Part shown: piece after piece, positions 14,488 through 39,750 of the stretch
Numbering within the stretch: position 1 is the first letter of the stretch
How the letters are laid out: each line of letters starts with the position of its first letter
Notes under the pieces: generated by a model
The model's input: only the letters and a program-made list of their open reading frames with translations
Database searches by the model: none
What the model was told of the DNA's origin: nothing
Assembly (NCBI RefSeq): GCF_036894955.1
Contig: NZ_CP145905.1
Span: forward strand, 4,358,501-4,422,500
From: Paenibacillus sp. KS-LC4
Lineage (GTDB): Bacteria; Bacillota; Bacilli; Paenibacillales; Paenibacillaceae
Length of the DNA: 64,000 bases
Reading direction: 5' to 3'
Made by a program: the position numbers and the translations under genes

Positions 14488-14552
14488 TTTTGACTGTATC
14501 CCTTAACCTTGTTAAACCATAAAAACCCAAGCAAGGAGGGGTGACTGAAAAG

Positions 14553-14777
14553 GTGAAAGGTAGCGACCATAAGAGCAAGTTTTTACTGACACATCGTGAA
14601 CGCGAGGTTTTCGAGCTTCTAGTCCAAGACAAAACAACACGAGATATTGCGCAACAGCTGTTCATTAGCGAGAAGACCGTCCGCAACCATATCTCTAATG
14701 TGATGCAAAAATTAAACGTTAAAGGTCGTTCGCAAGCGGTTGTCGAGCTAATCAAGCTCGGGGAGCTGCAAATATAA
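14553..14777 (+). CDS. gerE: GerE sporulation regulator (LuxR-type HTH)
   Basis: This is a 74-residue stand-alone LuxR/FixJ-type helix-turn-helix protein, the length of B. subtilis GerE and near-identical in the core: LTHREREVFELLVQDKTT, then LFISEKTVRNHISNVMQKL and KGRSQAVVELIKLGEL. GerE is the last mother-cell regulator of sporulation; with sigma-K it switches on outer coat, crust and cge genes. An earlier GTG at 14541 sits one base from the AAGGAGG and is too close; the GTG at 14553 gives the family length exactly, though at a long 13-base spacing. Its presence near spore-surface genes fits the reading of the 19.6-32.6 kb locus as late mother-cell genes. Confidence 0.95.
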   Translation: MKGSDHKSKFLLTHREREVFELLVQDKTTRDIAQQLFISEKTVRNHISNVMQKLNVKGRSQAVVELIKLGELQI

Positions 14778-17607: not shown

Positions 17608-18399
17608 TTAGTCGTAAATCATCGGGCTGCTTCTGTGCGCATTCGTGTAATTATCGCGGTCTGTACGGTCAGTCATACTGCGGTAAGTCATGTCGCCATC
17701 ATAACCACGCGATTCGATTTTATTAGCGTTCACCGGGAACAGACGCTCTGCCATAGCATTAAATTCAACCAAGAAGCCTTGGATCGGATGACCATTGCGT
17801 ACATCTGTCATATAGCTGGTCATACGCCCGACAAAATCCGGGTTTGCCGATACGTACACATTGTCCACACCAGGCTTCACCTTTCTGACTTCCTTGGCGA
17901 TTTCGGCTTTAATTTGCTGTGTCAGCGCGTTTTCGCCTGTGCTCATCGTATTCATGCGGCGTTGGTAATTGGAGCCGTCTCGGCCCATATAGCTGGAGTT
18001 TGTGCGGCTCATCAGCTTTTTATCGCCATTTTTAAGGTTGTCCTCAAAGGATACCGCCACATAAGCATTGTTATCGGTCAACATCACATTCGCTGATCTC
18101 ACATTATGCTTATTGACAATGCGCTTTGCAATTTCTTCGCTCATTTCCATTTTATAATTTTTATGACTCCCTACAATATTGTTGCCCCGAATATTTCTGC
18201 CGTTTACGTAGTTTTTCTCATTCATATGATCGTTGGCAAAACGATCATTTAACATTTTGTTGCCATTGGCATCTTCCCTTACCATTTTGGTACGAATGTT
18301 CTTATTACCTAAATCCCCTTGATTGGTTGCACAGCCTGTCAGCATAGCACTAAGCAAGGTCCCCGCAGATAAGACAGCAAGAAAATTCATTTTACGCAT
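17608..18399 (-). CDS. YhcN/YlaJ-family spore lipoprotein
   Basis: This 263-residue protein has a lipoprotein signal: MRKMNFLAVLSAGTLLSAML followed by TGC, the cysteine being the lipidation site. The mature part is Asn- and basic-rich, with the YhcN/YlaJ segments IAKRIVNKHNVRSANVML, AYVAVSFED and VDNVYVSANPDFVGRM. In Bacillus such proteins are made in the forespore and associate with the inner spore membrane, affecting germination. An ATG 39 bases upstream has no ribosome site; GGGAGG lies ten bases before the chosen ATG. Monocistronic, divergent from fabH. Confidence 0.88.
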   Translation of the reverse strand: MRKMNFLAVLSAGTLLSAMLTGCATNQGDLGNKNIRTKMVREDANGNKMLNDRFANDHMNEKNYVNGRNIRGNNIVGSHKNYKMEMSEEIAKRIVNKHNVRSANVMLTDNNAYVAVSFEDNLKNGDKKLMSRTNSSYMGRDGSNYQRRMNTMSTGENALTQQIKAEIAKEVRKVKPGVDNVYVSANPDFVGRMTSYMTDVRNGHPIQGFLVEFNAMAERLFPVNANKIESRGYDGDMTYRSMTDRTDRDNYTNAHRSSPMIYD

Positions 18400-18489
18400 G
18401 TACCGTATTCCTCCCTTGTTGTTACTTGCAGGCCTCATGACCCGCTATTAGGATGGTCGTCCTTGATTGAGACTATGCACGAATTGAAC

Positions 18490-19610: not shown

Positions 19611-20732
19611 TTAAGCAAATAATATGGATAGCATCGCATGCAGCCTATGGGCATAAGTATGCTCGCTCAGCGTGCGATGCATGCCGCGTATCGCAATTTC
19701 CTTGCGTTCATTTTCATGATTCAAATAATAGTCCAGCTTTTCCACCATTTCCTGCGGGGATTCATACGTTACTATTTCTACGCCAGGTGTATAAAAAGAA
19801 GCTATATCCTCCCTCACATCCGTAAGCTGGAGTACGGCGCAGGCAGAAATTTCAAAGGTGCGAGGATTCGGCGAAGAAGCCGTAACCCCAAGACTATTGC
19901 TGTTAAAGGGATCATCGTAAGCCCTGTGCATATTGATGACGATTTTGGAGGCATTATAAGCAAGCGCTGTATCATTCGGGGTCAACCAGTCACCTAGATT
20001 AATGATGGAGCGAAGACTGTCGAAGTCTTTCAGTCGATCCCACCAGATCCCGGATATGAGCGTATCCCTAGAGGCTAGATAGGAAGCTGCCTCATTAAAA
20101 AATTGAATTCTATTCATATAGCCCGAGCCAATAAAGCTAATCTCCTTGCGCTTGCTGCGCTCCGGCTTCATTGGTCTGAATTGGGCAGGCATAGCGCAGA
20201 ATGGCAAATAATGAACCTGCATACAGCCGCGCTCCTGATAGAGCGCCATGCAATTACGATCAAGTGTAAATACGGTATCATAGTGCGGGGCAAGCGTTGA
20301 AGTAATATCTGCATAATACGGGTCATCTGTAAACCAAATAGCTGTGCGAATATTGAGCGCCCGCATAGCATCAATTTGCGCTACATCAAATTGCAGACCA
20401 TCCAGCACAATAACATAATCTGGTCGCACCCGCGCGGCGATTTCTGCTACAGGCTCACCCGTCTTCACGACGGTTAACTGAGCTACCATTCCAGATAAAG
20501 TGTCTTTTACCGCTTCGTCAAGCGGAGAATAAGGCAATCCCTTGCCCGTTGATACGTACATAACATGCACAGGCCAAAAGCCTGTTACCGGCGGAATACG
20601 GCTAATAATCGACTCGCATTGACCAAACCAATAGCCTTCATTCCAGCCTGCTTGATAGCCCTCAGCTCTCCCTAGTTCCAGCTCAGTAGGTGGATTATGC
20701 CTTTTTTGCACAAGCGTTCTCGTTTTAGCCAT
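19611..20732 (-). CDS. CgeB-like glycosyltransferase, second of a pair
   Basis: This 373-residue protein resembles the spore-maturation CgeB / GT-B glycosyltransferase family: segments YVIVLDGLQFDV, RTAIWFTDDPYY, YDTVFTLDRNCMALYQERG, ISFIGSGYMNRI and the C-terminal NPRTFEISACAVLQLTDVRED, where the donor sugar nucleotide should bind. It begins with a basic leader (MAKTRTLVQKRH) and then five glycines at exact four-residue spacing, residues 21, 25, 29, 33 and 37 (GYQAG-WNEG-YWFG). I start at ATG 20730-20732, which has GAGGGAG upstream and overlaps the end of the previous gene by 8 bp; the longer frame reaches far into that gene. It is a paralogue of that gene. A role in adding sugars to the spore surface is inference from CgeB. 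Confidence 0.85.
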   Translation of the reverse strand: MAKTRTLVQKRHNPPTELELGRAEGYQAGWNEGYWFGQCESIISRIPPVTGFWPVHVMYVSTGKGLPYSPLDEAVKDTLSGMVAQLTVVKTGEPVAEIAARVRPDYVIVLDGLQFDVAQIDAMRALNIRTAIWFTDDPYYADITSTLAPHYDTVFTLDRNCMALYQERGCMQVHYLPFCAMPAQFRPMKPERSKRKEISFIGSGYMNRIQFFNEAASYLASRDTLISGIWWDRLKDFDSLRSIINLGDWLTPNDTALAYNASKIVINMHRAYDDPFNSNSLGVTASSPNPRTFEISACAVLQLTDVREDIASFYTPGVEIVTYESPQEMVEKLDYYLNHENERKEIAIRGMHRTLSEHTYAHRLHAMLSILFA

Positions 20733-21843
20733 TCGAGTCTCCCTCTTCCGTAATAAGCTGTAAAAGCTGTACGACACGTGATCTGAATGTATGATCCTTA
20801 AGCGTGCGTCGCAAACCATTAACCGCGATTCGGCTGCGCGCTTCCTCATTTTCTAAATAAAAATCGATTTTGGCTGCAAGCTCCCCCGCATCCTGATACG
20901 TTTCAATTTCCAGTCCCGGCGTGTAATATCGTGGCAAATCCTCGCGAATATCCGTTAACTGAAAGGCTCCGCAAGCGGCGATTTCATATGTTCGGGGATT
21001 GATTGAACGTCCTAGGCTTTGAAAAGCATTAAAATTGTCTGAGCCCATCTCTGTTGTTCGATGCATATTAATGACGATTTTGGCGCTGTTATAATAAGGA
21101 ACCGTCTGTTCAGCACTTAACCAGTCAGTGTTAATAAACGACTGCATCCGTCTGTAAGCTGATAATCGCTCCCACAGCCCTCCTGACAGGAAGATTTTGC
21201 GCCCCTTAGCCAGCAACCCCTCGCTAATGGCATTAAGGAGTTCAATCCGGTTCCAAAATCCTTGTCCAATGAAGCATACATCGCTTGCATACACAGATTC
21301 CGTTCTTTGCGGTCGATATAAGCCGGTATGCACAGCCAGAGGTAAATAATGCACATGGGCGCAGCCAACACTGCGATACAGCTCTAATGTTCCAAGCTCA
21401 TGCGTCAGCACGACATCATAATGCGACGCCGCTATTGCCGTTTCCTCTGTCATGTAAGGATCATCTACGAACCAAACTGCTGTGCGGATGCCCTGCTCCC
21501 TTACCGCGCTGATCTGCTGCAAATGATTGGCTGGAAAAAAATGCAGCCCATTCATCACAAGCACGATGTCGGGGCAAATTGCTGCTGCCTGTTCGGCAAG
21601 CAGCTCCGCATTTCCAATATGAAGCTCGGTTACACTCGCTTGCAGCGCATCAATGAGGCCTGCGTCGATCGCTTCAAAGCCTTGTGGAATATAGAGCAAT
21701 CGCAGTGGGACAGGTACCGGCTCCGGCGGAGGCAAAAGTCCGCTTACCGCTAGACAAGCCCCATCGCGCCAGCCCGTATGAAAGCCCGCTTCATACCCAC
21801 CTTGCTTTAATTGCTTGCGTGAATTATTTTTTCTGACCACCAT
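20725..21843 (-). CDS. CgeB-like glycosyltransferase, first of a pair
   Basis: This 372-residue protein has the same architecture as the next gene: DIVLVMNGLHFF, RTAVWFVDDPYMTEE, YDVVLTHELGTLELYRSVG, VCFIGQGFWNRIELL and NPRTYEIAACGAFQLTDIRED. The N-terminus is basic (VVRKNNSRKQLKQ) and runs into GYEAG-FHTG-WRDG with glycines at residues 16, 20, 24 and 28, the same tetrad motif seen in three other proteins of the locus. Start is uncertain: the ATG at 21841-21843 is chosen, a GTG three codons earlier is possible, and ribosome sites are poor for both. A tandem duplication followed by divergence explains the pair. Function as spore-surface glycosyltransferase is inferred. Confidence 0.83.
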   Translation of the reverse strand: MVVRKNNSRKQLKQGGYEAGFHTGWRDGACLAVSGLLPPPEPVPVPLRLLYIPQGFEAIDAGLIDALQASVTELHIGNAELLAEQAAAICPDIVLVMNGLHFFPANHLQQISAVREQGIRTAVWFVDDPYMTEETAIAASHYDVVLTHELGTLELYRSVGCAHVHYLPLAVHTGLYRPQRTESVYASDVCFIGQGFWNRIELLNAISEGLLAKGRKIFLSGGLWERLSAYRRMQSFINTDWLSAEQTVPYYNSAKIVINMHRTTEMGSDNFNAFQSLGRSINPRTYEIAACGAFQLTDIREDLPRYYTPGLEIETYQDAGELAAKIDFYLENEEARSRIAVNGLRRTLKDHTFRSRVVQLLQLITEEGDSNG

Positions 21844-22029
21844 TTGCTGCACCGCCTTGCTTCTTTTTCAATCGCTGCACAACATGCTTCCATTATTTAT
21901 ATGTCAACATGCACTCGCGCTTAGCGGCACTTGTCCCCGTATAAGAAAAATTGGCGTTTAACCTGCTGCCATCACCAAGATGCTCGTCATATAAGGATAG
22001 AGACACAGCGTGTCATTATGACAACGATC

Positions 22030-22089
22030 AAAAAATAGCCCTTACCCGCAAGATGGCTGAATAGACCATCAAACCGGCAGAGCTATTTT
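22030..22089 (-). terminator. terminator separating the small-protein operon from the CgeB pair
   Basis: On the minus strand GAAAATAGC (22082-22090) pairs with GCTATTTT (22032-22039), followed by TTTTTGATCG. The CgeB pair beyond it must have its own promoter in 21844-22029; I see no clear sigma-K match there, only a TTGACA at about 21906-21911 with a poor -10. Confidence 0.6.
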
Positions 22090-22145
22090 CTGAAAAATAT
22101 TTGCAGCCCTCTCTGGCAAAGCTTGCATGAAGCGTTACGTGCTGG

Positions 22146-22430
22146 CTATGGTGCCTGCTCATACGCGAGCTGATGCCCATCTTCAAAGCCTTTCGCAAAG
22201 CCGGCATTATAGCCCATGTTATACGTTTGATTGAAGCCCTCGTCAAAGGTCTCTGTCCCGATCTCGCGACTTCTCGTCACTTTCCTGCGACGGCGCATTG
22301 ATGATGCGCCCCCTCTTTTGGAACCTCTAGCTCTGCGTGTTCGCGTGCGTTTTGGACGCCGGGTTATAGCTTTCTTAGTAGAACGCTTCTTGGCTCGTTT
22401 ACGAGCGGACACGCGTTTTTTTATACTCAA
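22146..22430 (-). CDS. small basic protein with C-terminal aromatic-x-x-Gly tetrads
   Basis: This is a 94-residue protein of unknown family. The first two thirds are extremely Arg/Lys-rich (for example KKRVSARKRAKKRSTKK and SSMRRRRKVTR), reminiscent of nucleic-acid- or polyanion-binding tails. The last third is a run of tetrads: YNMG, YNAG, FAKG, FEDG. The same tetrads occur near the N-termini of both CgeB-like enzymes and one GT2 enzyme. I start it at the TTG 22428-22430, which overlaps the previous stop (TTGA) and has AGGGGG eight bases upstream; the longer frame from a GTG at 22463 would overlap the previous gene by 37 bp. It may be an adaptor binding the tetrads of the enzymes, which is speculation. 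Confidence 0.7.
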   Translation of the reverse strand: MSIKKRVSARKRAKKRSTKKAITRRPKRTRTRRARGSKRGGASSMRRRRKVTRSREIGTETFDEGFNQTYNMGYNAGFAKGFEDGHQLAYEQAP

Positions 22431-22738
22431 TTCCAATTCCCCCTGTTCACTTGCGGGTGCCACCGCACCTGCTTTCCTCGCACCTTGTTATGGAGCCAAG
22501 GCTCGGGCGGCTTGCCCGTCCTTACCCGATAACTGCGCACCGGCCAGCCTGTCACGCTCTCAGCTAACTGCGCCTGCATGTTCGTCAATATACGTACATT
22601 TTCGCCAATTCGCTTGGCGGTTTGCGGGGCGAGCTCGGCAACATCAGCTACGCTGTTCAAAATGCGGGCAAGCGCGTGCTGGCTGCGCGCAATCGAAGAA
22701 AGCACCTCCAACTTAACCTCGCGCTCGCGGCGCACCAT
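22427..22738 (-). CDS. small helical protein of the spore-surface locus
   Basis: This is a protein of about 103 residues that I do not recognise. Residues 1-60 form an amphipathic helix pair (REREVKLEVLSSIARSQHAL, then VADVAELAPQTAKRIGENV); the C-terminal 40 residues are basic with Trp and Pro (WPVRSYRVRTGKPPEPWLH). There is no signal peptide. A TTG at 22747 overlapping the previous TGA is an alternative start; the ATG at 22736-22738 is chosen. It lies between two other small helical genes with stop/start contact on both sides, so these are translated together. Confidence 0.7.
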   Translation of the reverse strand: MVRREREVKLEVLSSIARSQHALARILNSVADVAELAPQTAKRIGENVRILTNMQAQLAESVTGWPVRSYRVRTGKPPEPWLHNKVRGKQVRWHPQVNRGNWN

Positions 22739-22743
22739 TTCCC

Positions 22744-23079
22744 TCAATTCCCGCCACCGAATCCGCCGCCAAAGTGAAATTCCGAGCCGGAGGAATGGCT
22801 ATCCTCGCCTTCCTTCTGCAATACGGCTTTGAGCACGGATACAATGCCTTGGCTCATTTTGTTAATGCCCTCAATCGTCTCAACCATCTGGTCATGTACA
22901 CCTAGCGTCTGCTTAAGCTGCGTCTGGTCGCCTGGAAAAGTGCCCGTGTGAATATGATTGCATATCCAGTTACGGGCCTTCTCCGCTTCCTGCGCCTTCG
23001 CCTCCAAAATTAGCGCCACGTTCCACTGCATATTGGCTGTAGCGCCCAACATGCGCATATAGGCTTGCTCTCGGTCCAT
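22744..23079 (-). CDS. small helical protein with Gly-rich tail
   Basis: This 111-residue protein is soluble and mostly helical (YMRMLGATANMQWNVALILE, then QMVETIEGINKMSQGIVSVL), ending in a glycine-rich tail SEFHFGGGFGGGN of the sort seen in coat-associated proteins. It has two internal features of note: a Cys in ARNWICNHIHTG and no membrane segment. GGGGAG lies eight bases before the ATG. It starts 25 bp after the upstream 95-residue gene and is in contact with the next gene. I cannot name a family. The position within a glycosyltransferase operon suggests a structural or adaptor role. Confidence 0.72.
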   Translation of the reverse strand: MDREQAYMRMLGATANMQWNVALILEAKAQEAEKARNWICNHIHTGTFPGDQTQLKQTLGVHDQMVETIEGINKMSQGIVSVLKAVLQKEGEDSHSSGSEFHFGGGFGGGN

Positions 23080-23104
23080 GACATGCGCTCCCCTTTTCGC
23101 TTCG

Positions 23105-23392
23105 TCATTCTTCCTCGCCTGGGTTCAGCTCTTTTATCGTATAAGACAGTTGAGATGCCAGCGTCTCTTGCAGCTCAGCCATGCTGTTTAAATAAGCAAT
23201 TACACTGCCCAGCAGCGCCTGCGATTCCCCAAGCAGATCGTCCACGCCGCCCAAATTCGGCCCATGATCAGGGAGGCTTTTCACAATTTCGGCCATTCGT
23301 ACCGTGACATGGCGCTTTGCTTCCAGCACACGTGCCATCTGGCTGTTGGAATGGGATAAATGCTCAATAATTTCGGTTACGATATGCTGCAT
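23105..23392 (-). CDS. small coiled-coil protein of the spore-surface locus
   Basis: This protein of about 95 residues is helical throughout with heptad-like spacing (HIVTEIIEHLSHSNSQMARV, then QALLGSVIAYLNSMAELQET) and an acidic end (NPGEEE). It resembles its two downstream neighbours in size and helical character; the three may be distant relatives or partners. The ATG at 23390-23392 is chosen because AAGGAGG lies ten bases upstream; the ATG nine bases earlier is only one base from that site. A 127-bp gap separates it from the GT2 gene upstream and could hold a promoter. No known family recognised. Confidence 0.72.
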   Translation of the reverse strand: MQHIVTEIIEHLSHSNSQMARVLEAKRHVTVRMAEIVKSLPDHGPNLGGVDDLLGESQALLGSVIAYLNSMAELQETLASQLSYTIKELNPGEEE

Positions 23393-23519
23393 GGCCAACA
23401 TTCCTCCTTCGAGCTATGGCTTGGCCCTGTGCCGCCACTTGTATAGGTGCAGCTATTTACAGCATATGCACGGCGGTACACAGTGATACTTGGCGCTGAA
23501 CAGCGGCTTGATAACCCTT

Positions 23520-24878
23520 CTAAAGATGTTGGCGGAGCTTGACAGCGGGAATAATCGGCAAGCCTTCCGGAATGGCATGCAGCTGCTCCATTGTGAGCTG
23601 GACTGATGGCCTTGCCGTAAGCGCCCAGCCTTCGTAAGCGGCTTCCGTTATCATTTTTCGCTTCAAGCCCTGCTGCATATAATAATGAAATCCATCAAGT
23701 CCGCTAACGATTTTGCCATGGAGCTCGCTGCCTTCCATCACCAGCAGTTGCTGTCGCCTTGCATGGACTTCCTCGCTTGAAATCGGCGGTCCGATTGGCC
23801 ATCGTCTAATATCGATTTGCCCGATATGAATGACTTCTCCAGCAAATTCGCCTTCAACAGGTCGCCTGACGCCGCCTTCAATCCAATACACTAAGCCTTT
23901 AATTGAAGTAACCGCTATGCTGTCTGGGTAATAGGCTGCCTCCCCAAGCACAGCGATTTCGGCCAGAAGTGCAGGCTGCTCGGCGAAGCGATGCTTCATG
24001 ACGCTGACCAACTCATGCGGATTGCCCCATTTATTCATATAATGCTGCAGGTTACGGTTATTAACTTCCTCAAGCTGCGCACCTAGCGCCTTGATGCTGA
24101 CGCTGCCAAAATGGTGAATAAACGAATCACGGGCAATGACAAGCGAATACCCTAGCAGCTTCACCCGAATGTTATAGTCATCGTCTTCAAAATTGCCGAT
24201 TTCAAAGCCTTCATCAAAATAACCGATTTTCTCCCACAACTCCCGCCTCAGCAGCAAGCAGAAGCCTGTCAGCCGATCAACCTGCTGCCAGCGTCTAGCA
24301 TCCGGCACATTATTCAACCTTGCAAAGTCGGGCATATCCGCAACATTCGTATAAGGAACCTCTATCAGCTGCTCGCCTCCGATATAATTCGTGACAGGCC
24401 CAACCATGCCGATTTGCGGATTGCTGTCCAAGCAAGCTATCATATTATCCAGCCAATTGTCAGTCACGAGCGTATCATTGTTTAAAATAAGCATCATTGT
24501 GCCTTTTGCCATCATCATGCCTCTGTTAACCGCTCCGGCGAAGCCGAAGTTTTCGCTTAAAATCCGGTAGCGCACCTGACCATCAAGCTGGGACAAATAG
24601 CTTCCCGTCCCATCGGTCGAAGCGTTGTCAATGACGATAATTTCATAAGCAAGATCCGTATGGTCCATAATGCTTTCAATGCACATCTTCAAATACTGGA
24701 GCTGATTATAGCTAGGTATAATGATGCTCGTTCCTTGAAACTTCTCATTATAGCTATTAAATCCCGCTTGCCGCCCATCCCGATAGCCTTGCTCGACACC
24801 CTGCGCATGCGATGCCTGCTGCCGTACGCGGGCTTGCCTAGTATTGCGGTGGCGTTTTCTTGCCGCTATTCTCCTCAT
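23520..24878 (-). CDS. GT2 glycosyltransferase with basic leader and long C-terminal extension
   Basis: This 452-residue protein is a rhamnosyltransferase-like GT2 enzyme. After a basic leader (RRIAARKRHRNTRQARVRQ) come glycines at 27, 31, 35 and 39 (VEQG-YRDG-RQAG), then the GT-A fold from about residue 50: SIIIPSYNQLQYL, IIVIDNASTDGT, ILNNDTLVTDNWLDN with the metal-binding region, and GFCLLLRRELWEKIGYFDE. From about residue 300 a C-terminal extension of about 150 residues follows that I do not recognise. Its ATG overlaps the stop of the nucleotidylyltransferase gene by 4 bp (ATGA), so donor synthesis and transfer are translationally coupled. It shares the tetrad motif with the CgeB pair despite a different fold, which argues the motif was added for a common purpose. 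Confidence 0.85.
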   Translation of the reverse strand: MRRIAARKRHRNTRQARVRQQASHAQGVEQGYRDGRQAGFNSYNEKFQGTSIIIPSYNQLQYLKMCIESIMDHTDLAYEIIVIDNASTDGTGSYLSQLDGQVRYRILSENFGFAGAVNRGMMMAKGTMMLILNNDTLVTDNWLDNMIACLDSNPQIGMVGPVTNYIGGEQLIEVPYTNVADMPDFARLNNVPDARRWQQVDRLTGFCLLLRRELWEKIGYFDEGFEIGNFEDDDYNIRVKLLGYSLVIARDSFIHHFGSVSIKALGAQLEEVNNRNLQHYMNKWGNPHELVSVMKHRFAEQPALLAEIAVLGEAAYYPDSIAVTSIKGLVYWIEGGVRRPVEGEFAGEVIHIGQIDIRRWPIGPPISSEEVHARRQQLLVMEGSELHGKIVSGLDGFHYYMQQGLKRKMITEAAYEGWALTARPSVQLTMEQLHAIPEGLPIIPAVKLRQHL

Positions 24879-25600
24879 TCTCCCGTCTCCTTCAACAGCC
24901 TCGCTGCGGCCTCATGCAAGGATTCGAACGTTCCCGCATCCGTCCACCATCCTGCAAGCGTATGGGAAGCAAGCTTTCCCGCCCGCGCATACATATTGTT
25001 CAGGTCGGTAATTTCCAGTTCCCCGCGCCCTGATGGCTCCAGCCGATCAATCGCTGCAAATACGCTGGAATCGTACATATAAATGCCCGTTACGCATAAA
25101 TCCGATTGCGGCTTTGCTGGTTTTTCGTCTATATAAGCGATTTGCCCCGCATTCTGGAACACGGCTATGCCATAGCGATGGGGGTCTGGCACCTGCTTGA
25201 GCAGCACCATCGCACCCTCCTGCTGCCGGGCAAATTTCCTTACATACGGAGCCAAATTATCCTCGAACAAATTATCGCCAAGCAGCACGATAAACTTCTC
25301 ATCATTTCGAATAAAATCGCGCGCCAGCTCCAGCGCCTCCGCAATGCCGCCCGCTTCCTCCTGAATGCGGTAAGTCAGCGAGACACCCAGCTCACGACCG
25401 CTTCCTAAATACTCTGCAAACAAACCGATCGACTGCCGTCCTGTCACGAGCAGCATTTCTTGAATGCCTGCCTGATGCAGCTTATTAATGCCATAAAAGA
25501 TCATGGGATGCTTGCCTACAGGAAGCATATGCTTGTTCATTAAAGTGGTCAGCGGCCTCAGCCGCGTCCCTGTTCCTCCTGCTAATATGACTGCTTTCAC
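24875..25600 (-). CDS. SpsI/RmlA-like sugar-1-phosphate nucleotidylyltransferase
   Basis: This 241-residue enzyme should join NTP and a sugar 1-phosphate to make an activated sugar. Visible are the nucleotide loop LAGGTGTRLRPLT, the Lys-containing NKHMLPVGKHPMI, the metal Asp in LLGDNLFED, the EKP loop and the GWWTDAGTFESL end. It is shorter than ordinary RmlA (about 290) and close in length and sequence to the spore-coat protein SpsI (about 246), which works in spore-surface polysaccharide synthesis. It lies 31 bp after one GT2 gene and overlaps the next by 4 bp. The product sugar is probably dTDP-glucose or a relative; no rmlBCD genes are in the window. Confidence 0.9.
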   Translation of the reverse strand: MKAVILAGGTGTRLRPLTTLMNKHMLPVGKHPMIFYGINKLHQAGIQEMLLVTGRQSIGLFAEYLGSGRELGVSLTYRIQEEAGGIAEALELARDFIRNDEKFIVLLGDNLFEDNLAPYVRKFARQQEGAMVLLKQVPDPHRYGIAVFQNAGQIAYIDEKPAKPQSDLCVTGIYMYDSSVFAAIDRLEPSGRGELEITDLNNMYARAGKLASHTLAGWWTDAGTFESLHEAAARLLKETGE

Positions 25601-25631
25601 GGTTCAACCTCCATGCCGCTTAAGCCTTAGC

Positions 25632-26486
25632 TTAAAGCGCAAACTCGCGGCAGCGACGGTAATCCTCAAAGCCGCCACGTTCATTCGATTGTGTAATCAG
25701 CCAGTGGATCGCTTCCAAATGATCCCCAACAATAAGATGCTCAAGCGGGCTTCGTCGTTCGCGCTGCGGCCTGCGCCGGTTCATTTTGCCAACATTGACC
25801 GTATGCACCGCCTCAACCTTCAATCCAAGCCGAATCGCTCTGGCGTGGGCAAGCGGTGGAACGCACAGCGCCTCCGCTCCGATTAAAGCTAGACCTTGTC
25901 TGCTTAACGCATGGGGGACGGCTGTGAAGGAGGCTCCCCTCAGCTCCGGGCGCTCCAGTACAATATTGAGCGCATGCTTCGCGAGCACGACGCTATGCAC
26001 AGCGGTTTTGTCTATCGGGCCGGTATAACCATTTAAAGCGGCATCTACACCCCGATGCAGCACGGCATAAACAAAATGCCGCAATTGCGCGGTGCTTATG
26101 ACCATATCTCCATCTACAAACAATAGCACTTGACCTAAAGCAGCCCGCGCTCCAATGCTTCGTCCAACATCATGGCCTAGCGCCTTCTCATAGCGAAGCA
26201 CTCGCGCTCCCGCACGTCTGGCGATTTCGGCTGAACCATCTGTCGAGCCGTTTGCAACGACGATAACCTCAGTCCGTGGATGGACGCCTGCTGCTTCCCT
26301 AATGATCTTTCGAATGGTAGCCCGTTCATTCATAACGGGAATAATAACGGATACGACTGGAGACTGCAGCGGCTGCGCTTCTCCGGCATAATCGTCTGCG
26401 GCCATGCCGCTCTGGGCATAACGCGGCTTTTTCGCAGCACGGAAATTCCGGGCTTTTTTCCCCTTCGCACCCTTCGCTTTCTTCAT
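25632..26486 (-). CDS. GT2 glycosyltransferase with Lys-rich leader
   Basis: This 284-residue GT-A enzyme begins with a strongly basic leader (KKAKGAKGKKARNFRAAKK), then from about residue 45 the GT2 core: VVSVIIPVMNERATI, VIVVANGSTDGSAEIARRAG and the DxD-type LLFVDGDMVIS. It lacks the aromatic-x-x-Gly tetrads of its neighbours but shares the basic start. The C-terminal part is rich in Arg (MNRRRPQRERRSP). It is the first gene after the giant-protein terminator, and starts the transferase operon; upstream a CATACAATG resembles a sigma-K -10 but has no matching -35. Acceptor and donor unknown; a polymer- or protein-glycosylating role is inferred from context. Confidence 0.83.
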   Translation of the reverse strand: MKKAKGAKGKKARNFRAAKKPRYAQSGMAADDYAGEAQPLQSPVVSVIIPVMNERATIRKIIREAAGVHPRTEVIVVANGSTDGSAEIARRAGARVLRYEKALGHDVGRSIGARAALGQVLLFVDGDMVISTAQLRHFVYAVLHRGVDAALNGYTGPIDKTAVHSVVLAKHALNIVLERPELRGASFTAVPHALSRQGLALIGAEALCVPPLAHARAIRLGLKVEAVHTVNVGKMNRRRPQRERRSPLEHLIVGDHLEAIHWLITQSNERGGFEDYRRCREFAL

Positions 26487-26661
26487 CCGCTTCGTTCACC
26501 TCGGTATACGCCTATAGTTCAAAATAGTGCTGCTTAGTAATTACACCTCATTGTATGTACCTCCATCATCTGCGCAACGGCAAATGTACAACTCCCATGA
26601 TGTCTGTCCCGCACCCATATCAAAAGCAAGAGGCAGATAACCGAAGTAATGCTGTTGTCTA

Positions 26662-26739
26662 CGTCCTCTGGCGGCGCAGCGCGCTCCAATTTGAGAAATA
26701 TAGAGGAGAGAGGAGAGGGGAATATCATACTCTTTCTAG
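26662..26739. repeat. dispersed intergenic repeat, copy 1
   Basis: The sequence begins CGTCCTCTGGCGGCGCAGCG and contains GAGAAATATAGAG about 30 bases later, then TATCATACTCTTTCT. The same succession occurs at 58306-58385. The long distance between copies and absence of genes suggest a mobile or structured non-coding family. Confidence 0.55.
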
Positions 26740-26756
26740 GGCACGCCCTAGTCTTT

Positions 26757-26798
26757 CGAAAAAAAAGAAGCTCCCCTTGCGACTGCACAAGAGGAGCT
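26757..26798 (-). terminator. terminator of the giant repeat-protein gene
   Basis: On the minus strand AGCTCCTCTTG pairs with CAAGGGGAGCT (one mismatch, 26769-26798) followed by TTCTTTTTTTT. It lies 60 bp past the giant gene stop and ends its transcript before the GT2 gene. Confidence 0.85.
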
Positions 26799-26859
26799 CT
26801 TTCCATGTTGAATCGCTGAGTCTAATCTGCAAATCGCTAATGACATTTTTAAGCAGACC

Positions 26860-29800
26860 TTATTGTCCGATTGCAATCCAGTTAATAGTGCCAATGAAAG
26901 CTTCGCTGAAAAAGCGGCGATTAATGGATAGGATGGCATGACCCGGCTCCTTCGCTTGAATGCATACATAGCAGGCCGGATTATCGCTCGTTGCTGTCAG
27001 CACATATTGATTGCTTGTAAACGGTTCGTCAAAAAGAATAACCTGCTCTAGCTGCTGCTTCTCAGGCGGAAAGCTGTACGGGCATAACCCAAATTGCTGC
27101 TTGCTGATGCTGCCGCTCCGTCCAACGATTGGCGAAAAAGCAAGAGCTGACAGCTTTACGCTGGCAGGTGCAAGATGCTCGGCGGTGACAGCACCTACCT
27201 TAATTTTGTCGCCCGTTACGCTGTTGGTGGACAGATGCTCCGCTATCACGGCTCCTTCCGCCAGCGCCTCACTTCCTACGCTCGCAAAAGCCAGCTTCGC
27301 CCTCGTTACGCTCGCTTCGCCCAGCTTTTCTGTCGTGACGCTGCTATTCGCCAGCTTTTCGCTCGTTACGCTCTCTGCCGTCAAATGCTCCGCAACAACG
27401 GCTCCTTCTGCCAGCGCTTCGCTTCCTACACTTGCATAGGCCAGCTTCTCCCTCGTTATACTCGCTTCGTCCAGCTTTTCCGTCGTGACGCTGCTATTCG
27501 CCAGCTTTTCGCTCGTTACGCTCTCGGCCGTTAGATGCTCCGCTATTACAGCTCCTTCCGCCAGCGCTTCACTTCCTACGCTTGCATAGGCCAGCTTCTC
27601 CCTCGTTACGCTCGCTTCATCCAGCTTCTCTGTCGTGACACTGCCACTCGCCAGCTTATCGCTCGTTACGCTTTCGGCCGTCAGATGCTCCGCTATTACA
27701 GCCCCTTCCGCCAGCGCTTCGCTTCCTACGCTCGCATAGGCCAGCTTCTCCCTCGTTACACTCGCGTCGCCCAGCTTTTCTGTCGTGACGCTGCTACTCG
27801 CCAGCTTATCGCTCGTTACACTCTCGGCCGTCAGATGCTCCGCAACAACAGCTCCTTCTGCCAGCGCTTCACTTCCTACGCTCGCATAGGCCAGCTTCGT
27901 TGTCGTTACGCTCGCTTCGCCTAGCTTTTCCGTCGTGACACTGCCACTCGCCAGCTTATCGCTCGTTACGCTCTCGGCCGTCAGATGCTCCGCAATCACG
28001 GCTCCTTCCGCCAGCGCTTCACTTCCTACGCTCGCATAGGCCAGCTTCGTCGTCGTTACGCTCGCTTCGCCTAGCTTTTCCGTCGTGACACTGCCACTCG
28101 CCAGCTTATCGCTCGTTACGCTCTCGGCCGTTAGATGCTCCGCTATTACGGCTCCTTCCGCCAGCGCTTCGCTTCCTACGCTCGCAAAAGCCAGCTTCTC
28201 CCTCGTTACACTCGCTTCGCTCAGCTTTTCCGTCGTGACGCTGCTATTCGCCAGCTTTTCGCTCGTCACGCTCTCTGCCGTTAGATGCTCCGCTATTACG
28301 GCTCCTTCCGCCAGCGCCTCGCTTCCTACGCTCGCAAAAGCCAGCTTCTCCCTCGTTACACTCGCTTCGCCCAGCTTTTCCGTCGTGACGCTGCCACTCG
28401 CCAGCTTTTCGCTCGTCACGCTCTCTGCCGTCAAATGCTCCGCTATTACGGCTCCTTCTGCCAGCGCTTCGATTCCTACGCTCGCAAAAGCCAGCTTCTC
28501 CCTCGTTACACTCGCTTCGCCCAGCTTTTCCGTCGTGACGCTGCCACTCGCCAGCTTTTCGCTCGTCACGCTCTCTGCCGTTAGATGCTCCGCTATCACG
28601 GCTCCTTCCGCCAGCGCTTTACTTCCTACGCTCGCAAAAGCCAGCTTCTCCCTCGTTACACTCGCTTCGCCCAGCTTTTCCGTCGTGACGCTGCCACTCG
28701 CCAGCTTATCGCTCGTCACGCTCTCTGCCGTCAGATGCTCCGCAACAACGGCTCCTTCCGCCAGCGCTTCGCTTCCTACGCTCGCAAAAGCCAGCTTCGC
28801 CCTCGTCACACTCGCTGCGCCCAGCTTTTCCGTCGTGATGCTGCTATTTGCCAGCTTTTCGCTCGTTACGCTCTCGGCCGTCAGATGCTCCGCTATTACG
28901 GCTCCTTCCGCCAGCGCCTCGCTTCCTACGCTCGCATAGGCCAGCTTCGCCCTCGTTACACTCGCTTCTCTCAGCTTTTCCGTCGTGATGCTGCTATTCG
29001 CCAGCTTCTCACTCGTTACGCTTTCTGCCGTCAAATGCTCCGCAACAACGGCTCCTTCCGCCAGCGCCTCGCTTCCTACGCTCGCATAGGCCAGCTTCGC
29101 CCTCGTTACACTCGCTTCGCCCAGCTTTTCCGTCGTGACGCTGCTATTCGCCAGCTTCTCACTCGTTACGCTTTCTGCCGTCAAATGCTCCGCAACAACG
29201 GCTCCTTCCGCCAGCGCCTCGCTTCCTACGCTCGCATAGGCCAGCTTCGCACTCGTTACACTCGCTTCGCCCAGCTTTTCCGTCGTGATGCTGCTATTTG
29301 CCAGCTTCTCACTCGTTACGCTTTCTGCCGTCAAATGCTCCGCAACAACGGCTCCTTCCGCCAGCGCCTCGCTTCCTACGCTCGCATAGGCCAGCTTCGC
29401 CCTCGTTACACTCGCTTCGCCCAGCTTTTCCGTCGTGATGCTGCTATTCGCCAGCTTTTCGCTCGTTACGCTCTCTGCCGTCAAATGCTCCGCAATCACG
29501 GCTCCTTCCGCCAGCGCTTCACTTCCTACGCTCGCATAGGCCAGCTTCGCCCTCGTTACACTCGCTTCGCCCAGCTTTTCCGTCGTGACGCTGCCATCTG
29601 CCAGCTTCTCGACACGAATCGAGCCATTTTTCAGCTTGCTTCCAAAAATGCTCTCATCCTCAGCGCGATCAACCGTAATAACATCGGCCGCGAGATGCGC
29701 TAAAGACAGCGAGTTTTTACGAATATGATAGCCCTGCACCGTTTCGGCCCGAAGATGCTTGCCGGCTATCGTCTCCAGCTGCAAATGCTCGCCAGACACA

Positions 29801-32559
29801 GAATCCTTTCCAAGCTTCACCTCTGTCACACTGCCATCCTGCAAATTAGCGCTGGCAACGCTGTTTATTGCTAAATGTCCCTCGCCGATGCAGTACAGCT
29901 GAATATGCTTTTCTCCTACAGAAAGCGGGGCCAGCTGTTCAGCGGTTACGGCTTGGCTTTGCAAATGCTCCGTACCGATAATACGCGGCTGAAGCGCTGC
30001 ACTACCGATTGCCGCCTCCTGAATATGCCTGCCTTCAACGCTCGCTTCGGCCAAATTAGCCGCCGTCACAGCTCCTTCCGCTAAATGTACATCGCGGATG
30101 CTGCCTTCCTGCACATGAATGCCAAGCACGGAGCCATTGGATAAATGACGGCTGTGAATCGCTTCACCCGCAATATGCTTCGACTTCACAGCATCAAGCG
30201 CCAATTTCGCCGAGTGAATCGCCAAGTCAGCAAGCTGTTCACTGCCAACCGCTCCCGGCTGCAAATGAGAGGCCGCAATAAGCCCGTTTTGGAGATGCTC
30301 CTTGGCAAGCGAGCCTATCTGAATGTGCTTACCTTCAATAGCCGCCGGAGCAATATGCTCGCCTTGCACCGTTCCTGGGGCAAGCTTCGTTCCCGTCACG
30401 CTGGCTTCAGCAAGCTTTGCTGCCGTTACACTGTAATCGGCCAGCTTATCCGAGGTCACCGCTTCTGGTGAAAGCTTAAGTGAATTAATGCTATGATCTG
30501 CTAAATGATGGGAAGACACAACGCCAGAGGCAATATATCTTTCTGTCACAGCTTCATAAGCAAGCTTTGCGCTCGTCACGGCGCCATCATGGAGTATTCG
30601 AGTTGTAACCGCATCATCGGCTACATGCTTCTCATGAATAATCTGCGGCTGCAAATGATTGGCAGCTATCGCTTCAGCCGACAAAGCCTCACCCGTCACA
30701 GCTCCATTTGAAAAATGGTATGCCCGCAGCGCTTCTGGCGCGATTTTGTGAAACGTAATCGCTTCATCACGCAATTGTCTCGTATCGACCGAATGATCTG
30801 CAAGATGTGCAGCAGATACGGCTCCTGCGGCAAGCTTCGTAGAGGTAACGCTTTGCTGAGCAAGCTGTCTGCTGCCCACAGCCGCATCCGTCAAATGCTG
30901 CACTCGAATTGCTCCCGGCGCAATTTTCTCATCGGTGACGGAGCTGCTGCGCAAATGCTCCGTACCAACTGCCTCTTCCCGCAGTTGGGCACCGGACACG
31001 GTATTGACCGCCAAATGACGATTGTGTATTTGTCCGTCCGCTATTTTCTCAGCAGATATGCTGAGGCGGCTCAAATGACGTGCTTGCACCGCATCGTCAG
31101 CGAGCTTCGCTGCGGTTACACTTTGCTCCGAAAGCTTGGAAACGGTAACCGCATGATCAACCAGCTTGATCGTCGATACAGACTGATCCATCAGCTTGGA
31201 GGCTGTTACCGCTTGATCAACGAGATGCCCGCTTTCGATTTGGCGCGGTGAGATATGCGGCCCCAGAACGGCCCCTGCCTGCAGATGTGCGGTGGACACC
31301 GCTCCGCTTGCTAGACGCTCGGAGTCTACGGCGCTGGGCTGCAACTCCCTTGCGCCGACCGCGCCGACTGCCAGATGCTGGGCGCTTATTTCGCCTGGGG
31401 CCAAATGCTTTCCCAATAGGACGCCGACAGCAACATGCTCGGCGAGCAACACGCCAGGTTTAATGTGGATGGATTCGATGGACCCTGCAGCAAGCTTCTC
31501 CGTATTCACAGCGCCATCGCGCAGCTTGGAGCGGGTTACAGCTCCATCTGCCAGCTTGGAATTGTTTACTGCATCATTCGAAAGGTGCTCCGGACGGATG
31601 GCTCCGCTTTTGATTTTGCTAGAAGTAACAGACTGCTGCCCTAGCAATTCCTCCGTTAAAAATTGCCGTTTCAAATGCCTCGCTTCAATTGATTCGTCGG
31701 CGAATTTGTCGGAGCCGATCGTACGATCAGCGAGCTTCTCGGAAGTAACGCTGTTATTTTGCAGCTTCTCTCCCGTAACGGAGCCATCTGCCAGCTTATT
31801 TCCCGCAATAGCATTGTTTGCCAGATGCTCAGCTATTATTGAATCTGGTGCGATTTTGCTGCCGGACACAGCTCCCTTAGCGATATGAATCGCTCCAATC
31901 GCATAATCCTGAACGGCTTCGGCCCCTACGCTGCCCGCACATAGTTTCGTAGAATTAATAGAGGCTGGTGCAATTTTGTCACTCGTTACCGAACCATCCA
32001 CTAAATCGTCGGTATAAATAAACGGCTTCGGCCCGCCAAGCTCAGGATTTTGCCTCTCGGCTGCGAGCGCCAGCTTCTCCTCATAGCTCGGTTCGGCGTC
32101 TTCTTCATCTTCATCTTCAATGACGATTGCAAGCTCAATTGGCTGCTGGACGCGTTGGACGCTTGGCGGCGTTCCTCCCTGCACACCCTTGGGGGGCGTT
32201 TCTTGCTCCAAGGTTTGCGAAGGCAAGCTTTCTTGCTGTCCATCCATTGGAATACTTTGCATTTCTTCCGTACCCTCGTCTGTCAGCTGCTGCGCTTTTT
32301 CAGCTTGTGGCTGCTCAATGCGGGATGTATCCCTGAACGGCGCTTCCGGAGCCGAAATCGCATTAATGCGAACCTCCTTCGACTGCCCAGCTTCCGCCTG
32401 CTGCTTTGCTTCAGCCTGCTTCTGGGCCACTTGAGCTTGCGCTTGTGCCTTTTTGCTATTTAAATCATCGAGCCATTTCAATTCAGAAGCATTCGGATTA
32501 TCAACGTAAAAAAGCGGCCTTTTTCTTCTCGAGCTTCCTGCTTTTCTGCTTTTCGCCAT
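26860..32559 (-). CDS. giant decapeptide-repeat protein with WIAG-like C-terminal domain
   Basis: This is a 1899-residue protein. Residues 1-14 form a basic leader (MAKSRKAGSSRRKR); 30-60 is an Ala/Gln/Lys helix; to about 188 it is Gln/Pro/Glu-rich and probably disordered. Residues 191-1800 are 161 decapeptides in unbroken register, consensus [VIL]-x-x-x-[KH]-[LI]-x-x-x-[AS]; the first 80 are diverged, the next 80 form 16 near-identical 50-residue blocks. The last 100 residues are a globular domain with three Cys ending in GTINWIAIGQ, which recalls the WIAG-tail domain of Paenibacillus proteins. No signal peptide: it would be made in the cytoplasm, fitting a mother-cell spore-surface protein. 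GAAGGAG precedes the ATG, and a sigma-K-like promoter is upstream. Similar decapeptides occur in phage tail fibres. Spore fibre function is inference. Confidence 0.88.
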   Translation of the reverse strand: MAKSRKAGSSRRKRPLFYVDNPNASELKWLDDLNSKKAQAQAQVAQKQAEAKQQAEAGQSKEVRINAISAPEAPFRDTSRIEQPQAEKAQQLTDEGTEEMQSIPMDGQQESLPSQTLEQETPPKGVQGGTPPSVQRVQQPIELAIVIEDEDEEDAEPSYEEKLALAAERQNPELGGPKPFIYTDDLVDGSVTSDKIAPASINSTKLCAGSVGAEAVQDYAIGAIHIAKGAVSGSKIAPDSIIAEHLANNAIAGNKLADGSVTGEKLQNNSVTSEKLADRTIGSDKFADESIEARHLKRQFLTEELLGQQSVTSSKIKSGAIRPEHLSNDAVNNSKLADGAVTRSKLRDGAVNTEKLAAGSIESIHIKPGVLLAEHVAVGVLLGKHLAPGEISAQHLAVGAVGARELQPSAVDSERLASGAVSTAHLQAGAVLGPHISPRQIESGHLVDQAVTASKLMDQSVSTIKLVDHAVTVSKLSEQSVTAAKLADDAVQARHLSRLSISAEKIADGQIHNRHLAVNTVSGAQLREEAVGTEHLRSSSVTDEKIAPGAIRVQHLTDAAVGSRQLAQQSVTSTKLAAGAVSAAHLADHSVDTRQLRDEAITFHKIAPEALRAYHFSNGAVTGEALSAEAIAANHLQPQIIHEKHVADDAVTTRILHDGAVTSAKLAYEAVTERYIASGVVSSHHLADHSINSLKLSPEAVTSDKLADYSVTAAKLAEASVTGTKLAPGTVQGEHIAPAAIEGKHIQIGSLAKEHLQNGLIAASHLQPGAVGSEQLADLAIHSAKLALDAVKSKHIAGEAIHSRHLSNGSVLGIHVQEGSIRDVHLAEGAVTAANLAEASVEGRHIQEAAIGSAALQPRIIGTEHLQSQAVTAEQLAPLSVGEKHIQLYCIGEGHLAINSVASANLQDGSVTEVKLGKDSVSGEHLQLETIAGKHLRAETVQGYHIRKNSLSLAHLAADVITVDRAEDESIFGSKLKNGSIRVEKLADGSVTTEKLGEASVTRAKLAYASVGSEALAEGAVIAEHLTAESVTSEKLANSSITTEKLGEASVTRAKLAYASVGSEALAEGAVVAEHLTAESVTSEKLANSSITTEKLGEASVTSAKLAYASVGSEALAEGAVVAEHLTAESVTSEKLANSSVTTEKLGEASVTRAKLAYASVGSEALAEGAVVAEHLTAESVTSEKLANSSITTEKLREASVTRAKLAYASVGSEALAEGAVIAEHLTAESVTSEKLANSSITTEKLGAASVTRAKLAFASVGSEALAEGAVVAEHLTAESVTSDKLASGSVTTEKLGEASVTREKLAFASVGSKALAEGAVIAEHLTAESVTSEKLASGSVTTEKLGEASVTREKLAFASVGIEALAEGAVIAEHLTAESVTSEKLASGSVTTEKLGEASVTREKLAFASVGSEALAEGAVIAEHLTAESVTSEKLANSSVTTEKLSEASVTREKLAFASVGSEALAEGAVIAEHLTAESVTSDKLASGSVTTEKLGEASVTTTKLAYASVGSEALAEGAVIAEHLTAESVTSDKLASGSVTTEKLGEASVTTTKLAYASVGSEALAEGAVVAEHLTAESVTSDKLASSSVTTEKLGDASVTREKLAYASVGSEALAEGAVIAEHLTAESVTSDKLASGSVTTEKLDEASVTREKLAYASVGSEALAEGAVIAEHLTAESVTSEKLANSSVTTEKLDEASITREKLAYASVGSEALAEGAVVAEHLTAESVTSEKLANSSVTTEKLGEASVTRAKLAFASVGSEALAEGAVIAEHLSTNSVTGDKIKVGAVTAEHLAPASVKLSALAFSPIVGRSGSISKQQFGLCPYSFPPEKQQLEQVILFDEPFTSNQYVLTATSDNPACYVCIQAKEPGHAILSINRRFFSEAFIGTINWIAIGQ
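27190..29589 (-). repeat. 16 tandem 150-bp repeats inside the giant gene
   Basis: Sixteen in-frame 150-bp units, each coding five decapeptides (types VTTEKLGEAS, VTRAKLAYAS, VGSEALAEGA, VIAEHLTAES, VTSEKLANSS), span exactly 2400 bp. Units differ by a few substitutions, with variants such as ANSS/ASGS and RAKLAY/REKLAF shared by neighbouring units, the mark of recent unequal crossing-over. Copy number is likely to vary between strains, and short-read assemblies may collapse the region. Confidence 0.95.
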
Positions 32560-32593: not shown

Positions 32594-32622
32594 CAATATA
32601 TGCACAAACCTATGGGCTCGTT
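32594..32622 (-). promoter_or_regulatory. sigma-K-like promoter of the giant gene
   Basis: On the minus strand AACG (32619-32622), 16 bp, then CATATATTG (32594-32602), against the remembered sigma-K pattern mACm, 16-17 bp, CATAnnnTA; the last -10 base and the last -35 base deviate. The start point would be about 32587, giving a 28-base leader that contains the AAGGAG. No good sigma-A promoter competes. Confidence 0.5.
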
Positions 32623-32710
32623 ACTTGATCTTGCGAAGCTGACAGGCGGGAGCCCATCAGCACAATAGGATGCGCCACCCTCCCGCGGTAATCCATTTTT
32701 ACTTTTATAC

Positions 32711-39664: not shown

Positions 39665-39750
39665 TTCGTGCAACTGCCTCCTTGCGCATTAAAATGGCCA
39701 TATTTGCGATAGCATACGCACCATTCGCGCAAATTGCCACTAGCTGAGGT

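Follow-up and report, generated by a model that had tools for sequence, protein, structure and literature searches.

The window analysed here is a stretch of 64,000 nucleotides from the 6.25 Mb genome of Paenibacillus sp. KS-LC4, in which ten genes, all on the minus strand, form one block at positions 19611-32559. Read from 32559 downwards, the block encodes a giant repeat protein of 1899 residues that ends in a WIAG-tail domain (26860-32559; NF012201, E 2.4e-26), the glycosyltransferase GT2a with a basic N-terminal leader (25632-26486; PF00535, E 1.9e-19), an RmlA/SpsI-like sugar-1-phosphate nucleotidylyltransferase (24875-25600; PF00483, E 1.4e-59), the glycosyltransferase GT2b (23520-24878; PF00535, E 4.3e-29) with a basic leader and a GX3 tag (24741-24824), four small proteins, S4 (23105-23401), S3 (22744-23079), S2 (22427-22747) and S1 (22146-22463), and two CgeB-like glycosyltransferases, CgeB1 (20725-21852) and CgeB2 (19611-20732), both matching PF13524 and PF12996 and both with an N-terminal GX3 tag (21745-21819 and 20604-20678, respectively). 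The start of CgeB2 was set at the internal ATG at 20732, in an open reading frame that opens at 20849. The four small proteins matched no Pfam family above cut-off. S1 has a basic N-terminus and, as identified with the tag profile, a C-terminal GX3 tag (22155-22235), and S3 is predicted to be a two-helix hairpin, with no significant match in the PDB (best E 0.74). The likeness of the sugar enzymes to Sps and Cge proteins is based on these Pfam domains, and the SpsI-like enzyme scores below the cut-offs of all 25 NCBIfam models among the matches listed.

This gene content is the one listed in an earlier note on the same DNA, which was also right about the sporulation genes nearby: a gerE-type regulator (14523-14777, plus strand; PF00196), which from its sequence we take to be GerE, and a YhcN/YlaJ sporulation lipoprotein gene (17608-18438, minus strand; PF09580 and TIGR02898). 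The absence of signal peptides that the note claimed agrees with the N-terminal hydropathy of the ten proteins, which is at most 1.41, against 1.92 in the YhcN lipoprotein used as control, in a check on a 12-residue N-terminal stretch that differs from a signal-peptide predictor. Past the CgeB end of the cluster lies a gene on the opposite strand, presumably FabH-like, and two permease genes upstream of the giant are assumed to be of the iron-siderophore type. About 6 kb upstream of the cluster, the domain search located a GT4 glycosyltransferase (38495-39673, minus strand), presumably CotSA-like; similar genes, with likeness judged by eye, lie in the giant's 20-kb stretch at four of 60 loci from relatives. 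A transposase-like gene that we take to be of the IS110 type is present at 42554-43750 (minus strand), within a low-G+C stretch of the window.

The frame of the giant runs from the ATG at 32559 to the stop at 26860, and its domain searches were performed on 26860-32556, with the initial methionine left off (1898 aa). Its N-terminus is a basic module, PLFYVDNPNxSELKWLD, which is kept with variation across relatives. In the decapeptide repeat region (27127-32019, minus strand, from the repeat tally) hydrophobic residues recur with a period of five, without interruption over 157 pentads in one run and 169 in another, and the hydrophobicity autocorrelation is 0.78-0.79 at lags from 5 to 30. We tallied 162 decamers, with the consensus (S/A)-V-T-S-E-K-L-A-E/D-G. 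Serine and threonine make up 15-25% of the repeats, a composition that permits the glycosylation suggested in the earlier note without proving it. Within the gene, a DNA array at 27232-29611 repeats a unit of 150 bp about 16 times at 92% matches, a sign of recent expansion. The giant frame varies from about 850 to 4600 aa in relatives, which together with these units suggests that gain or loss of units may change the length of the fibre over evolution.

The Pfam Decapeptide repeat region PF25296 reaches 22.4 bits in the giant, below its 45-bit cut-off, while the Pfam searches detected neither the collagen repeat (PF01391) nor DUF4183, the latter up to E 1. Matches to DotG/IcmE and to pentapeptide repeats lie far under the cut-offs and were discarded as an effect of the periodicity. 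A pentapeptide beta-helix solenoid is not claimed: its five-residue spacing is alike, but the repeats are modelled at low confidence. The repeats do resemble phage tail fibres (PHROG 892), and a tblastn search of 50,697 phage records matched 94 of them, all at less than 60% identity, several of which carry tail-fibre or minor-tail-protein annotations.

The WIAG-tail domain (26863-27099, minus strand) consists of the last 79 residues of the giant and scores 91.6 bits with NF012201, against a cut-off of 33. In the AlphaFold2 model, built from 21 sequences, the pLDDT is about 90 for the tail and at most 70 for the repeats, with a pTM of 0.36 for the whole model. The tail is predicted to be a six-stranded beta-sandwich with the topology of H-type lectins. 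The closest structures in the PDB are the C-terminal tip of the LKA1 phage tailspike (Z 10.5) and the R1 pyocin fibre tip (Z 10.4), followed by the H-type lectins discoidin II (9.4), Helix agglutinins (8.6-9.1) and SLL-2 (8.2), with a fold-comparison tool for which a best Z of 7-8 is usual even without a clear match. The predicted structure superposes on the Helix agglutinins and discoidin II (VIA Z 8.6-9.4) with an rmsd of 2.2-2.6 over 78-85 residues, and the best Foldseek E for the tail is 4.9e-4; the likeness to Ena2A is weak (Z 4.9). At the sequence level, the Pfam H_lectin profile gave no match on the giant up to E 1, and no solved relative of the WIAG profile was found (best E 0.58). A phage origin of the tail is disfavoured, as tblastn found no match to it in the 50,697 phage records and there was no confirmed match in viral contigs. 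We conclude that the WIAG tail is predicted to fold like an H-type lectin or tail-fibre tip. The R1 pyocin fibre, phage tailspike tips and H-type lectins act as trimers, and a trimer is proposed for the giant because these are the fold relatives of its tail.

The WIAG tail was detected in 129 of 148 genomes of the family (one copy in 119, two in ten) and in 135 of 149 genomes of the order, other families among them. It was detected in six of 348 genomes of the phylum, all six from the family, and in none of 14 well-known control genomes. S3 was matched in 117 of the 148 family genomes, every one of them WIAG-positive, which leaves 12 of the 129 WIAG carriers without one; for 11 of the 31 S3-negative genomes (nine of genus g8, G074 and G113), the negative call rests on their absence from the 117 matches. 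Gene order was compared in 60 neighbourhoods, hand-chosen from WIAG matches on sufficiently long contigs and cut about 14 kb downstream. All nine partners are present in 19 of these, at least three in 47 and none in 12, and 398 of 400 partner matches have the orientation of the giant strand. By partner, the counts are 41 for GT2a, 41 for SpsI, 45 for GT2b (including short GT2b-like genes), 40 for S4, 42 for S3, 39 for S2, 40 for S1, 22 for CgeB1 and 25 for CgeB2. The recurrent order is giant, GT2a, (extra GT2s), SpsI-like, (GT-D), GT2b, S4, S3, S2, S1, CgeB1, CgeB2. Co-conservation of the nine genes with the giant, which the earlier note had proposed as a check, is thus present and strong. In the closest case, Paenibacillus algorifonticola XJ259 (L123), the cluster proteins are 85-96% identical to those of the window, apart from S1 at 76% and, at 81%, one of the two pieces of CgeB1.

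Several relatives depart from this arrangement. In four neighbourhoods (L114, L115, L116 and L120), GT2b and S1 are the only ones of the nine partners that come after the giant. In genome G004 the giant is elsewhere (L052), and GT2a, SpsI, GT2b, S1 and CgeB adjoin a 307-aa WIAG protein (L129:7838-8761) that has the giant's N-terminal motif and the WIAG tail, with no repeats. Three genomes (G047, G057 and G084) have a second, short-framed WIAG gene (282, 358 and 351 aa, respectively) about 8 kb from S3, which fits the arrangement of G004. Second genes directly past the giant are also found at L032:6732-10148 (L032/L119), L036:11770-13770 (L036/L120) and L116:11130-13031. They share the giant's N-terminal motif, and they were rejected as WIAG genes, because a C-terminus rich in Lys and Arg takes the place of the WIAG tail in them. 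At L077:6404-8296, a 630-aa collagen-repeat protein stands straight after a giant whose usual partners are missing.

The distribution of the giant was compared with that of the sporulation protein SpoIVA, which is present in 134 of the 148 family genomes. The 14 genomes without it all belong to genus g8, and neither WIAG nor S3 was found in any of them. All WIAG carriers tested for SpoIVA are positive (163/163). In the order draw the SpoIVA test covered 41 of 149 genomes, hand-chosen to span genera and including all seven WIAG-negative genomes that are not in the family draw; all 41 are SpoIVA-positive, 34 with and seven without WIAG. Judged from SpoIVA alone, genus g8 appears to be non-sporulating. 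A single event probably explains the absence in g8, and a genus of this sort would lose many spore genes. Five family genomes are SpoIVA-positive and negative for both WIAG and S3: G015, G081, G099 and G115 (genus g1) and G025 (g10). The absence is probably real in G081 because this assembly is one contig, the other four being drafts of 40-110 contigs. The existence of SpoIVA-positive genomes without WIAG means that the giant is not needed for sporulation.

The sigma-K-like promoter that the earlier note had assigned to the giant is present and, at the motif level, conserved. In the window it reads GTAAC-N17-CATATATT (32595-32625, minus strand), lies 43 nt ahead of the ATG and is the sole site above the score cut of a promoter matrix that itself includes this site. 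In relatives, 25 of the 34 distinct upstream regions have GTrrC-N16-GCATATnnT 40-45 nt ahead of the giant's start, and 17 have the strict form AC-N14-18-CATAnnnT, for which 300 shuffles gave 0.64 on average and 4 at most, although related upstream sequences are non-independent and inflate these counts. The matrix was made from 25 of the 34 regions; outside it are L041 and L104, whose assigned start falls within the motif, L057, one of the 17 strict matches, with its motif at -51, L052 and L086, the second N-motif genes of L032, L036 and L116, and the L129 short WIAG gene. Between the -35 and -10 elements the giant promoters carry a block, CCATGGGT or CTATAGGT, which we take to resemble a GerE box. 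The giant promoter is close to the sigK-dependent promoters of B. thuringiensis bclA (CAC-N16-CATATGTTA) and bclB (AGC-N16-CATATAATT), as given in PMC4750369.

For the partner genes we counted [AG]C-N15-17-CATAnnnT on the sense versus the antisense strand. The motif is above the antisense level ahead of GT2a (30 vs 12 of 41) and S4 (27 vs 6 of 40), and about at that level ahead of SpsI (3 vs 9 of 41), GT2b (3 vs 5 of 45), CgeB1 (4 vs 3 of 22) and CgeB2 (5 vs 3 of 25). Of the four gaps tested in the window, only the one ahead of GT2a contains it, and it was not found upstream of S4. Genes of coat type also occur near the giants of some relatives: YheC/D-type genes lie in the giant's 20-kb stretch at 11 of 60 loci (from clustering, one having been checked by Pfam), as do, in some relatives, APH-fold kinases, presumably CotS-like, and in one (L077) the collagen protein. 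On sequence evidence, a location of the giant on the spore is strongly suggested.

A feature shared by several proteins of the cluster is the GX3 tag, a stretch with glycine every four residues and aromatic neighbours (GYxxGxxxGYxxG), found in CgeB1, CgeB2, GT2b and the C-terminus of S1. A tag score of at least 9, a threshold chosen after the data were viewed, is reached by 103 of 104 members of these families and by 34 of 789 other ORFs, which include GT-D and CotS-like proteins. When a 28-column profile of the tag was run on the whole genome, the four window proteins ranked first (all four are in the profile), followed by a GT-D protein at C1:2639748 (E 0.008), FliH (E 0.026), recognised from its position between genes of fliG and fliI type, and three matches at E 0.26-1.09. 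The recovery of GT-D is supportive rather than blind because one row of the profile is the GT-D protein of another genome. The tagged GT-D gene follows GT2a-like and GT2b-like genes, as in the cluster of relatives, and is beside a small collagen-like gene. The region (L127; G000:C1:2629000-2648900) is a second sugar locus around this 194-aa collagen-like gene, with glycosyltransferases whose N-termini are very Lys/Arg-rich, and it includes the tagged GT-D that is missing from the main cluster.

At E 0.01 the tag was matched in nine of 26 further genomes. It was matched at this level in none of the 14 g8 genomes, nor in G081 and G115 (no WIAG) or G037 (a WIAG carrier), and the matches in G015 and G099 are FliH-sized ORFs; FliH-type ORFs match the profile at E 0.002-0.026. 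One protein cluster with an N-terminal GX3 tag was observed at loci with a reduced glycosyltransferase set (L045:1915-3165, L069:9100-10281 and L072:7622-8809); its L045 member has an APH kinase fold and is presumably CotS-like. Basic leaders, defined as 30-aa stretches in which Lys+Arg make up a third or more, are frequent in GT2a (78%, n=69), GT2b (73%, n=41), GT-D (85%, n=26) and S1 (13/13), intermediate in CgeB2 (40%, n=25) and rare in CgeB1 (5%, n=21) and other ORFs (6%, n=515). The tags have the glycines at spacing four of deca-GX3 motifs, and score 18.3 bits with the Yae1_N profile, below its 27.5-bit cut-off. According to PMC4523923, the deca-GX3 motif of Yae1-Lto1 is required for complex formation, and by analogy the tag may serve to build an enzyme complex here.

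We consider it probable that the locus encodes a late-sporulation, lectin-tipped, trimeric, glycosylated spore fibre of Paenibacillaceae and their kin, to which transferases dock by their tag. The mother cell would make one giant protein under sigma-K, held on the spore by its basic N-terminal module; the roughly 160 decapeptides would form a long beta-repeat shaft, and the C-terminal domain, with its predicted H-type-lectin or fibre-tip fold, would trimerise and may bind sugar. The RmlA/SpsI-like enzyme would supply the activated sugar with which the GT2 and CgeB-like transferases, and GT-D in relatives, would glycosylate the fibre. A GX3 glycine-zipper helix of CgeB1, CgeB2, GT2b, GT-D and S1 would dock these proteins together at the assembling surface, and the basic leaders of GT2a, GT2b, GT-D and S1 may help in the docking. 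More tentatively, and as a reading that is less likely than not to hold, we suggest a trimeric fibre in which each strand is one giant chain, with the architecture of a phage tail fibre and a lectin tip, and in which the transferases dock by their deca-GX3-like helix onto S1 as a scaffold, an enzyme complex that would build the sugar coat on the spore surface itself. The spore-surface fibre-and-glycosylation system of the earlier note remains the best reading of the co-conservation, the SpoIVA-less genus without a giant, the promoter and the genes of coat type found close to the giants of some relatives, whereas spore location, fibre form and glycosylation are what we infer. The WIAG-tail domain, the GX3 tag, the basic leaders and the conservation go beyond that note.

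The giant could instead be a coat or crust matrix protein forming a structural beta-repeat layer, either flat or within the coat, while the glycosyltransferases build a separate surface polysaccharide like that of the B. subtilis sps operon. The basic N-terminus and the small helical proteins suit a coat scaffold, and the giant is apart from the glycosyltransferase set in 12 of the 60 neighbourhoods, so the two can act separately; according to PMC517825, sigma-K drives the sps operon, whose products make coat polysaccharide. We nevertheless regard a coat scaffold as unlikely, since the giant adjoins its partners in 47 of the 60 neighbourhoods, a short WIAG protein stays beside the glycosyltransferase set in G004, where the giant has moved, and the predicted fold of the tail would fit an exposed end. 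A vegetative surface adhesin, or an S-layer or biofilm glycoprotein with no tie to sporulation, is very improbable: long repeat proteins are often adhesins and the lectin-like end of the model would suit adhesion, but the giant has a sigma-K-like promoter, is missing from the SpoIVA-less genus and has an N-terminus without the strong hydrophobicity of a secreted adhesin. A captured phage tail-fibre or tailocin locus, to which the repeats (94 phage records and PHROG tail fibres) and the modelled likeness of the tail to pyocin and phage fibre tips might point, is scarcely credible for a giant found in 129 of 148 family genomes, in single copy in 119, with a WIAG tail that phage records and viral contigs failed to match as described above and no tail gene among the Pfam matches of the cluster proteins, though the repeat alone could conceivably have been captured from a phage long ago.

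Spore surfaces govern adhesion, dispersal and host contact, and a giant protein that is present in this share of the family and accompanied by a dedicated set of enzymes makes a strong candidate for a principal component of the outermost layer. A lectin-tipped glycosylated fibre would be a case of a tail-fibre-like design put by a bacterium on its spore, and the system offers a way to test how glycosyltransferases of the cytoplasm are kept at the surface of the spore. No published account of it was found in the open-licence literature among the matches listed: WIAG-tail returned nothing beyond unrelated algal-virus work, decapeptide repeat with spore only unrelated fungal work, and CgeB in Paenibacillus spores only unrelated work, while the NCBI naming of the giant covers the tail domain only. 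The giant is also a possible anchor for spore display, for which CotE is employed in P. polymyxa according to PMC11278568.

Among known systems, several share one or more of these elements. R-type pyocin and phage tail fibres and the H-type lectins have the fold predicted for the tail, and phage tail fibres are alike in the repeats too; the giant differs from phage and pyocin fibres in being chromosomal, with a sigma-K-like promoter, a tail without sequence match in the phage records searched and, around it, no phage structural genes, the cluster proteins being sugar enzymes and small proteins. The cge genes of B. subtilis encode late mother-cell sugar enzymes of the spore surface. The sps operon likewise encodes such enzymes, for coat polysaccharide (PMC517825). 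Compared with sps and cge, the present cluster contains the giant protein and, by Pfam, no rmlB/C/D-type gene, and its enzymes carry GX3 tags, which were examined on Paenibacillus-side enzymes alone. The deca-GX3 adaptors Yae1-Lto1 and FliH also have glycine at every fourth residue, but the tag here is shorter (about 4-6 units), is borne by glycosyltransferases and stays below the Yae1_N cut-off. The F-ENA endospore appendages, which include a Paenibacillus subgroup, are spore filaments in the same family; as described in PMC11952670, their fibres consist of many DUF4183 subunits, whereas the fibre proposed here would be of one giant chain. The BclA or collagen-like exosporium nap of the Bacillus cereus group is, like the proposed fibre, a long glycosylated spore filament with a sigma-K-type promoter (PMC4750369). 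The distinction from the BclA type that the earlier note had drawn is supported by the lack of a collagen repeat in the giant, with decapeptides in place of collagen GXX, by the predicted lectin or tail-fibre-tip fold at the C-terminus and by the GX3-tagged enzymes. Glycosylated spore filaments are a known kind, of which the system proposed here would be a variant with a different shaft, tip and enzyme tag.
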